From: a virus
Strand: one strand, 5' to 3'
IMG/VR virus record: IMGVR_UViG_3300050821_003551
Coordinates: 1-22,216 of that record
Length of the DNA stretch: 22,216 nt
How positions within the stretch are numbered: position 1 is the stretch's first letter; each line of letters opens with the position of its first letter. Shown in pieces: positions 1,636 through 3,776 of the stretch. Under the pieces are notes generated by a model. It worked only from the letters and a program-made list of their open reading frames with translations. It was not told the DNA's origin and made no database searches. The translations under genes and the position numbers were made by a program.

Positions 1636-1679
1636 CAGCGCGCCGCCCATTATTGCATTACGCGCAATAGTGCGCGCTG
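1636..1679 (+). promoter_or_regulatory. Nested inverted repeat upstream of the 1695 gene
   Basis: Two dyads share one centre region. The outer arms are CAGCGCGC (1636-1643) and GCGCGCTG (1672-1679); the inner arms are TATTGC (1651-1656) and GCAATA (1664-1669), with a 7-nt loop. All arms pair perfectly. The element ends 15 nt before ATG 1695, just upstream of its AAGGA ribosome-binding site. It could be an RNA structure in the leader or an operator for a dimeric regulator. I cannot tell which from sequence alone. Confidence 0.45.
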
Positions 1680-1694
1680 CGGAAAGGATGAGGC

Positions 1695-1973
1695 ATGAGC
1701 AAAATTCTGCTCCTGGCAAAGAAGGAGCTGAGGGATCGCAATCCCGCCGCCATACCCGACGATACGCCGCTCGAGGAATGGCTGGATCAATACTTCGACT
1801 TCCTCGGGCCGGCTACTGAGGAAGAGCTGAAGGAGGCGCTGGAGCGCGTCGAGCCCTGGATCGATCCGGACGGGAGCGGGCGACGCTATTGGGCCATGTT
1901 CGATCTCAAGGAAGGCGTAAAGCTGGGCGTCGGCCTATTAGGCCAGCCGGTAGATCCTCCGAGATTAAGCTAG
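1695..1973 (+). CDS. Hypothetical acidic protein, 92 aa
   Basis: Start ATG 1695 has AAGGA 6 nt upstream. The protein begins with a basic helix (SKILLLAKKELRDRN) and continues as a strongly acidic part (IPDDTPLEEWLDQYFDFLGPATEEELKEALERVEPWIDPDGSG). It ends with a mixed hydrophobic segment (GVKLGVGLLGQP). It has no Cys, no signal peptide and no clear membrane helix. It is the last plus-strand gene of the small-gene run and converges on the LuxR-type gene on the other strand. I do not recognise it. Confidence 0.6.
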   Translation: MSKILLLAKKELRDRNPAAIPDDTPLEEWLDQYFDFLGPATEEELKEALERVEPWIDPDGSGRRYWAMFDLKEGVKLGVGLLGQPVDPPRLS

Positions 1974-1989
1974 GATCGCTTTAGAAGGC

Positions 1990-2054
1990 CGCTGGCGGCT
2001 CTCTGCCCTTCGCGGGTATCATTCTATCAGCCATAGGGTGACAAGCCGCCAGCG
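1990..2054. terminator. Inverted repeat between convergent genes
   Basis: CGCTGGCGGCT (1990-2000) is perfectly complementary to AGCCGCCAGCG (2044-2054), separated by 43 nt. It lies almost exactly between the plus-strand stop at 1973 and the minus-strand stop at 2060. The position suits a bidirectional termination or transcript-end structure, but there is no adjacent T run and the loop is long, so a simple intrinsic terminator is not certain. Confidence 0.4.
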
Positions 2055-2059
2055 GGCCG

Positions 2060-2344
2060 CTATGCGGGCCGCTCTTCGGACTTTGGATCGGGCAAATCGG
2101 GCAGATTGCCCCGCCCGCGCAAGATCTCTTCCGGCGATAGGGTGCCGTTGGCCACCGCTACGGCGCAGGCTTGCGCGAGATTGACTACGTTGAGCTTGTA
2201 GCGCGCATGATCGAGATAGGTCTTCACCGATCCGTTCGAGAGGCTGACGATCTCCGAGATTTCGGCATAGGTCTTCCCCCGGCAGGCCCACAGCAGCATC
2301 TCGCGCTCGCGGCCGGATAGTCGATGGGGACGCTCGAGGATCAT
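2060..2344 (-). CDS. Stand-alone LuxR-type HTH DNA-binding protein
   Basis: I start at the ATG at 2344 (MILERPHRLSG), which overlaps the upstream stop as ATGA and has GGAG 7 nt upstream. The 94-residue protein is almost only a GerE/LuxR C-terminal HTH domain at about residues 9-69. It shows LSGREREMLLWACRGKTYAEI, then SLSNGSVKTYLDHARYKLNV, then AQACAVAVA. The W-A-x-GKT and A-x-x-KLNV-x-N pattern is closest to the quorum-sensing LuxR subclass, but there is no autoinducer-binding or receiver domain. The Arg usually found before the QA of the last helix is Leu here. The Pro/Asp/Glu-rich tail is probably disordered. It is the last gene of the minus-strand virion/lysis operon. Family assignment is secure; the target DNA and any ligand are unknown. 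Confidence 0.85.
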   Translation of the reverse strand: MILERPHRLSGREREMLLWACRGKTYAEISEIVSLSNGSVKTYLDHARYKLNVVNLAQACAVAVANGTLSPEEILRGRGNLPDLPDPKSEERPA

Positions 2345-2667
2345 GGCGGATCTCCGTGCGTTGCCCGACCGAGCCAATAGACGACCACCGCGCCAAAGCC
2401 CGCGCCCAGGGCTCCGACCACCCCCGGCGTGATGTCGTCCGAGGGGATCGTGAACACGAGGCAGTAGGCGGTCGTCCCCAGCATCCCGAGGACGATCATG
2501 ATCGAGATGGTCAGCGGGCCTTTGGTGTGATCGTACTTGCCGGCGATGAACAGCAGGACGGCGGTCGCGAGGACGGTGACGACGACGGCGGTGGCCGAAG
2601 GATAGTTGAAGATCGCCACCTGCGGCGGAGGGTTTAGGGCGCCCTCTGCCGCCAGGAGAATTACCAT
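2341..2667 (-). CDS. Holin-like membrane protein with three transmembrane helices
   Basis: The 108-residue protein has three likely membrane segments: about residues 25-45 (ATAVVVTVLATAVLLFIAG), 52-74 (LTISIMIVLGMLGTTAYCLVF) and 82-101 (GVVGALGAGFGAVVVYWLG). Short charged loops separate them (KYDHTKG, PSDDITP). Size, topology and position near the end of the late operon fit a class I holin-like protein that would permeabilise the inner membrane, but no family-specific motif is visible. No dedicated endolysin gene is next to it. It ends as a 4-nt ATGA overlap with the LuxR-type gene and begins 4 nt after the tiny membrane protein upstream. The ribosome-binding site is weak, so translational coupling is likely. 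Confidence 0.65.
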   Translation of the reverse strand: MVILLAAEGALNPPPQVAIFNYPSATAVVVTVLATAVLLFIAGKYDHTKGPLTISIMIVLGMLGTTAYCLVFTIPSDDITPGVVGALGAGFGAVVVYWLGRATHGDPP

Positions 2668-2671
2668 CTGA

Positions 2672-2806
2672 TCAGCGGATCAAGCTCTTGGCTCTGAGGT
2701 AGCCCTTGAGGATAGACAGCGCCCAAGCCGTCAACGCCGGAATGGCCAGCTCCAGAATGCCGTGCGCTACGGCGTCGAAGGTCTGGGCGTCCTCAAGCAT
2801 GGTCAT
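2672..2806 (-). CDS. Tiny membrane protein, possible lysis accessory
   Basis: I place the start at ATG 2806 (MTMLEDAQTFD), giving 44 residues; ATG 2800 is an alternative. The longer upstream frame runs back into the preceding collar gene and is Arg-rich, which is not convincing. An acidic N-terminus (EDAQTFDAVAHG) leads into one hydrophobic helix (ILELAIPALTAWALSILKGYL) and a basic tail (RAKSLIR). This fits a single-pass or amphipathic membrane peptide. Lying between the collar gene and the holin-like gene, it could be a second holin, an antiholin or a pinholin-like peptide. That role rests on context only. Confidence 0.5.
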   Translation of the reverse strand: MTMLEDAQTFDAVAHGILELAIPALTAWALSILKGYLRAKSLIR

Positions 2807-2813
2807 GGTCGGG

Positions 2814-3776
2814 CTACCATCGGATATACTTATTGACCGTTCGTGACGGTTGCACGTTGTTATGCGCGCCGCTGGAGCCGGATGGCGCGAGATTAGCATA
2901 GCCGACGCCGATCGTGATGCCGGTGCCCGCCGCCGCCGTGTTGCCGCCCGCAATCTCCGGCGGGTAAGAGCCGAGCGAAAACCAGCCGCCGCCGCCGACT
3001 TGGTTCAAGACCCCGCCATGCGCGTGGCCGGGGTCGCTCAGGCCATGGTTATGCCCATAGTCGCCGTGCGAGTGGTAGGGCATTTCGGCGAGCTGCAAGG
3101 TGTGATTGACCTCGCCGGTGATGCCGTTGGGGCCGAAGTTGAAGAACCGCCCAGCGTTGCCAGCCGGCCCGCCCATGTTGTCCGAGCCGACGAGGGAGTA
3201 GCCGCGATAGTCGGGAACCGCAAAGCCGGTCCCGCTGCCGCCGTAGGCGTAGCCCATCAGATCGAACAGGAGATCGTGCAGGGTGGTGTCGTACCAGCCG
3301 CCGTCGCAGCACAGCCAGCCGGGATGGAGAAAGCTGACCGGGAAGCTGGCGATGGTGCCGGGAGGGCAGCCGCCGTAATCCCAATAGACGCGCCCGGGAG
3401 TGACGATGATCGGGTAGGGGATGCCGAACTGCTGGATGAAATAGACGCCGGTCGGATCGTTGAAATTGTTGCCGCGGATGTAGACGCCAAAGCCGTTCAT
3501 GGCGCAATTGGGAATGACGATCTTGCGGCCAGCCGACGTCGGTGGAAAAGCAATGTATTGAGCCGATGTCAGGGAGCCGACGAGATAGATGATCTGGCAG
3601 TTGGCTTGGGCCTGGGTGAGGTAGATGTCGCCGCCGGTGCAGGTAATCGTCGCCTGCTGCCCGACCGCCGCATCGATCGAGTTGAGCGACGCGTCCATGG
3701 GCAGATCCCATGTGTTGACGTAATCGCCGCGGGCCGGGACTTCGAGCTGAAGACTTGGAGTGAAGGTACTAGCCAC
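2814..3776 (-). CDS. Phage tail-collar domain protein (receptor-binding fibre tip)
   Basis: The start is GTG 3776 with AGGGGG 6 nt upstream. The 320-residue protein has a beta-rich N-terminal half with no family I recognise. A tail-collar domain follows at about residues 139-200 (PGTIASFPVSF, WLCCDGGWYDTTLHDLLFDL, FAVPDYRGYSLVG). Next come three HxH motifs (His235/237, 242/244, 251/253) in HSHG, HNHG and HAHG form, and a Gly/Ala-rich end with GNTAAAGTGI and AHNNVQPSRTVNKYIRW. Tail-collar proteins form trimeric short fibres, and HxH motifs in such proteins are known to hold metal ions on the trimer axis. The C-terminal part is paralogous to the collar protein at 17123-17995. It is preceded on this strand by a 216-nt gap that carries an antisense gene. 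Confidence 0.85.
   Translation of the reverse strand: MASTFTPSLQLEVPARGDYVNTWDLPMDASLNSIDAAVGQQATITCTGGDIYLTQAQANCQIIYLVGSLTSAQYIAFPPTSAGRKIVIPNCAMNGFGVYIRGNNFNDPTGVYFIQQFGIPYPIIVTPGRVYWDYGGCPPGTIASFPVSFLHPGWLCCDGGWYDTTLHDLLFDLMGYAYGGSGTGFAVPDYRGYSLVGSDNMGGPAGNAGRFFNFGPNGITGEVNHTLQLAEMPYHSHGDYGHNHGLSDPGHAHGGVLNQVGGGGWFSLGSYPPEIAGGNTAAAGTGITIGVGYANLAPSGSSGAHNNVQPSRTVNKYIRW

Follow-up and report, generated by a model that had tools for sequence, protein, structure and literature searches.

A sensorless quorum-sensing-type LuxR DNA-binding domain encoded by diverse phages, usually among late genes

A bare LuxR-type gene closes a late operon

The stretch of DNA analysed here, which we call the window, is the 22,216-base IMG/VR virus record IMGVR_UViG_3300050821_003551 and probably represents a fragment of a soil-phage genome. 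Its minus strand carries a late operon of virion, tail and collar genes that closes with a 44-aa ORF, a 108-aa membrane protein and, as the final gene, a 94-aa protein consisting of a bare LuxR-type HTH domain. The following features lie at this locus:

2814..3776 (-): tail collar-domain protein, same operon, upstream (Pfam PF07484, 47.3 bits; PHROG tail families)
2672..2806 (-): ORF of 44 aa that has a single hydrophobic segment and probably belongs to the same cassette
2341..2667 (-): small membrane protein of 108 aa with three hydrophobic segments (holin-like), no family match
2352..2355 (-): GGAG ribosome-binding site of the HTH gene, 7 nt before its ATG, read directly from the sequence
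2060..2344 (-): bare LuxR/GerE DNA-binding domain protein, 94 aa, with its ATG at 2344 and its stop at 2060
1982..2062 (no strand): inverted repeat with 19-nt arms at the convergent junction directly past the HTH stop (z -3.1; no T-run)
1636..1681 (no strand): dyad or stable hairpin between two small plus-strand genes, upstream of 1695-1973 (+) (z -2.7)

The initial annotation had placed the HTH gene at 2060-2344 without giving a strand; the plus-strand frame is closed there, so the minus strand has to be added to otherwise correct coordinates. It had also described the gene as cotranslated with a holin-like gene at the end of a late operon. The coupling is borne out by the TGA stop of the 108-aa gene, which overlaps the HTH ATG as ATGA, and the gene is indeed the last of the window's minus-strand operon, but a late position turned out not to be universal among its relatives (see below). 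The inverted repeat beyond its stop is a probable two-way transcription end between the HTH gene and the convergent run of small genes. In a search for a phage RNA polymerase, the control itself matched nowhere.

The label “holin-like” refers to protein length and the three hydrophobic segments only; no family in Pfam, PHROG or NCBIfam matched this protein. Homologues with 54-73% identity are encoded by five other phages (L002-L006) that otherwise share little. A further relative (L105:2109-2423) was recognised by eye only.

Domain content and predicted fold

The window protein matches GerE (PF00196) over residues 8-62 with E=1.3e-12 and a score of 47.6 bits (cut-off 23.5), and neither an autoinducer-binding domain (Autoind_bind, PF03472) nor a receiver domain was found in its 94 residues. 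It is consequently not a quorum-sensing LuxR receptor, which would carry PF03472 at its N-terminus. The best NCBIfam matches are all of the quorum-sensing type (PA1136 family, EpsA, SdiA, VisR and TraR) and, together with the best PDB matches and the placement in our tree, assign the domain to the quorum-sensing subclass, just as had been proposed from the sequence at the outset.

Bare LuxR-type HTHs of phages can carry the PHROG label “sigma factor” (phrog_3282; NC_030931.1 gp10; NC_029066.1 gp24). We rejected this identity for the window protein: its domain content, i.e., GerE without a sigma region 2, contradicts the label, and the HTH fits GerE much better than it fits Sigma70_r4_2 (2.1e-7 for the latter).

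An AlphaFold model (mean pLDDT 80.8) predicts the four-helix GerE fold for residues ~7-70, with helices at 11-21, 26-33, 37-51 and 56-65, the recognition helix SNGSVKTYLDHARYKL, and a short additional C-terminal helix at residues 71-75. Aligned with VIA-align, the model best matches GerE itself (1fse_A; Z 12.4, rmsd 1.1 over 67), with further matches to TraR (Z 11.3-11.8) and QscR (Z 11.5).

Two parts of the domain are well conserved in the phage family described below, the DNA-contacting helix and the dimer-interface helix of GerE-type domains (QAxAxAVxxG). Conservation of the latter would suit a protein that pairs with or sequesters a host LuxR instead of acting on DNA, in the manner of a mirror-image TrlR or an Aqs1-like factor, and LuxR antagonists do have precedents (PMC13043044). 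We consider such a role improbable, because few parts of the domain are as well conserved as the DNA-contacting helix, which a purely protein-contact antagonist would not need. Our preferred reading is that of a DNA-binding regulator.

A phage gene family under selection

Viral scans with the protein and then with growing alignments extended the family from 1 to 21 to 30 contigs, so that close relatives of the bare HTH are now known from 30 IMG/VR contigs. On distinct contigs their open frames encode short proteins that share one core and carry no partner domain, the exception being a distant pair (L033/L034).

One alternative raised by the initial annotation was that the gene is a decaying piece of host DNA which related phages lack. 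A passenger without function would fit the patchy presence of the gene and the finding that the closest cellular sequences are host genes of full length, yet we regard it as very improbable, since the family recurs across contigs, PF03472 was absent from 18/18 related phage records tested, and pairwise dN/dS is mostly about 0.1-0.5. These values, well under 1 and obtained between phages sharing little else, led us to reject decay; the reading frame is also intact in every contig inspected, and the window gene has a good ribosome site. Judged by its substitution pattern, the HTH gene is under purifying selection; it is no degraded remnant, and it is not confined to a single phage.

Shared ancestry with LuxI-paired regulators of Hyphomicrobiales

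The nearest cellular relatives are the LuxRs of three Hyphomicrobiales MAGs (L035, L036 and L037), which are chromosomal, 256-279 aa in full length, composed of Autoind_bind and GerE, and each adjacent to a PF00765 LuxI gene. The window protein is only about 53% identical to them, and other surface residues differ. Across 297 Hyphomicrobiales genomes, a comparison set retrieved by profile and not by a recognition-helix pattern, almost every match falls in an open frame as long as a complete LuxR.

We ran the phylogeny against host LuxRs that the initial annotation had suggested, and the phage HTHs cluster with these three host proteins in one clade with a support of 100/99, or 98/94 after seven further phage sequences had been added. 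A single origin of all 20 phage sequences, i.e., one acquisition as opposed to more, is possible and was not rejected (p-AU 0.32). By this tree, the phage HTHs share ancestry with LuxI-paired Hyphomicrobiales regulators, and the nearest cellular relatives of its protein suggest Hyphomicrobiales as the putative host group of the window phage.

The recognition helix adds detail to this relationship. The pair K41/D45 is present in 20/20 phage sequences compared with 4/35 others (L035-L037 and L039), though some retrieval patterns contained the recognition helix, which inflates its conservation. Residues 41 and 45 presumably correspond to the base-contacting arginines 206 and 210 of the TraR-DNA complex. 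The recognition helices of a phage protein (L102, FGSVKTHLDTAR) and a host LuxR (L037, FGSVKTHLDSAR) are one residue apart. This match to LuxI-paired LuxRs lends support to binding of host LuxR sites by the phage proteins.

The substitution of Leu for the conserved Arg of the last helix, initially taken as a hint at altered binding, is real (Leu 56). We rejected its reading as a defect or as evidence of changed DNA contacts: all phage sequences have L, M or V at position 56, the three host relatives all have L, and Leu 56 is thus typical of the lineage and marks no special defect.

Gene contexts in related phages

Across the relatives the HTH gene occurs in at least eight gene contexts, including a lysis cassette and the neighbourhood of terminase, major head protein, tail fibre and methyltransferase-like genes. 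In three contigs (L021, L022 and L032), it is flanked by a tail-fibre-type gene and, directly after it, a GH19 endolysin with a membrane protein behind; in the first two, it overlaps the endolysin start by 4 nt. Elsewhere it stands between a terminase and a small membrane protein, structural genes and a portal (L092, L098, L102 and L103), after a major-head-type protein (L017/L018), in a 4-nt overlap with a ~770-aa gene (L015, L016, L082 and L091), or after a tail fibre and a 118-aa gene (L104/L105). In a further group (L019, L020, L023, L025-L027, L030 and L031), it is located behind a methyltransferase-like gene (a match tested as such in L019 and L023), or overlaps with it, at a convergent junction with a helicase operon.

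Late placement is thus the rule among relatives but not universal. The HTH gene of L010/L024 is alone among small genes on the opposite strand, while that of L002 is convergent with the holin-like gene and begins right after a strong terminator, so the time of expression is unlikely to be uniform. In the latter contig, a terminator-type hairpin, very strong and followed through by a T-run (L002:999-1035 (+); z -4.2 for an 81-nt stretch), ends exactly at the HTH ATG, and expression would hence need read-through or a leaderless start.

That the gene is found again and again next to late and lysis genes, with 4-nt overlaps with the endolysin (L021/L022) and with the window's holin-like gene, would suit a regulator internal to the phage that acts on the phage's own promoters, feeds back on late transcription or lysis timing and on the convergent run of small genes, and takes no part in host quorum sensing. 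The recognition-helix match would then reflect ancestry only. Bare LuxR regulators also sit at regulatory positions in cultured Pseudomonas and Rhizobium phages. We think this explanation possible though unlikely, given that the position of the HTH gene within the late region varies between phages, or falls outside of it.

Comparison of the window phage with five contigs (G001-G005), retrieved by way of either the HTH or the holin-like gene, also speaks against a phage-internal role. The holin-like gene is common to them, the HTH gene is present in two but absent from 3/5, and the latter gene is thus not essential to late control. We rejected whole-phage kinship with these contigs: beyond the holin-like gene and sometimes the HTH gene, they share with the window only short stretches of few other genes (gK, gM or g1). 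Such limited sharing makes the HTH and holin-like genes look like mobile cargo among phages with similar hosts.

Two other kinds of proteins were observed in these surroundings. Exported-looking proteins with a PEP-CTERM-like tail (e.g., PEPSTWAMLILGFVGLGFVGLRHKAGR), an unusual phage cargo, are encoded on HTH-bearing phage contigs, and several of these phages have, close to the HTH or the holin-like gene, proline-rich proteins in which PDQGLP-type motifs are repeated:

L105:5324-5962 (-), L104:1697-2335 (-), L106:3889-4623 (-), L094:2637-3371 (+): proteins with a PEP-CTERM-like tail
L002:445-894, L092:2846-3562, L094:3658-4254, L102:2892-3578, L005:8406-8807 (-), L006:8442-9119 (-): proline-rich proteins

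Searches for operators

The dyad at 1636-1679 had been singled out early on as a candidate binding site. The structure is real, and the stretch 1636-1681 folds better than all but 1/200 shuffles, but a role as common operator was rejected since a loose pattern of the dyad occurred in 0/107 loci. In the intergenic DNA of 18 phage loci, no convincing shared dyad was found either (the best 5-mer dyad occurred in 4 loci, with a shuffle maximum of 3), and the resulting lack of a conserved dyad near the HTH gene again argues against a phage-internal regulator. On the host side, the luxI and luxR upstream regions of L035-L037 contained no clear conserved lux box, and a comparison of host luxI promoters with phage intergenic regions gave no shared lux-box-like motif, which counts against the role at host operators proposed below.

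Proposed role

We propose that the HTH gene encodes a captured, signal-independent DNA binder of the LuxR type that is usually expressed late, resembles GerE or a truncated LuxR, and probably acts at host LuxR operators, a reading to which we assign a probability of roughly 0.5. LuxR without its N-terminal domain activates lux without autoinducer, and a bare domain can thus be an active regulator. Like GerE, the phage protein would fold and form dimers via its last helix with no need for autoinducer, would be made late in infection, and might then occupy host LuxR operators and perhaps copies of such operators in the phage. The host LuxR regulon would in this way be switched irrespective of cell density, with the protein serving either as a constitutive activator, like truncated LuxR, or as a blocking competitor.

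A bolder version, which we put forward tentatively and with distinctly less confidence, is that unrelated types of lytic soil phages share this half-regulator as cargo that seizes host LuxR operators late in infection and uncouples their regulon from density. If so, the uncoupled quorum-sensing regulon might include phage-defence or surface genes. Binding at host LuxR operators predicts that the phage proteins should bind an operator of the type recognised by the L035-L037 LuxRs.

Comparison with known systems

GerE of Bacillus subtilis (1fse), the best structural match, is likewise a free-standing sensorless LuxR-type domain of about 70-90 aa. It is, however, only 28% identical, a sporulation regulator of a Gram-positive host and not phage-borne, whereas the window protein falls among proteobacterial quorum-sensing LuxRs. 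The LuxI-paired Hyphomicrobiales LuxRs have a near-identical recognition helix and also Leu at position 56, but differ as full-length, chromosomal receptors with Autoind_bind beside luxI.

Among phages, the Pseudomonas and Rhizobium phage proteins phi2 gp10, PS-1 gp24, RHph_Y1_10 and RHph_I3_18 (phrog_3282) are bare LuxR-type HTHs as well. They are 38-46% identical to one family member, and their genes lie near repressor, ParB, replication or GcrA genes and not in a late operon. Such small LuxR or “sigma factor” proteins have apparently been annotated but not studied.

The LuxRs of phiARM81ld and Apop share with the window protein that they are phage-encoded and of quorum-sensing ancestry (Silpe & Bassler 2019; Silpe 2023). 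These are full-length AHL receptors that have an XRE partner and trigger prophage induction (PMC6456758, PMC10432266), whereas the window protein has no ligand domain and is encoded in a late operon. Phage LuxRs are thus already known, while the sensorless late variant appears to be undescribed: in the literature searched, we found no phage LuxRs that comprise only the DNA-binding domain, are linked to late genes and are related to a LuxI-paired lineage. The published search for phage LuxRs used the autoinducer-binding domain (PMC6456758) and would for this reason miss the whole sensorless family. If the proteins do act on host LuxR operators, these phages would control quorum-sensing regulons without sensing anything, a strategy that would differ both from eavesdropping (VqmA-phage, LuxR-ARM81ld) and from protein antagonism (Aqs1).
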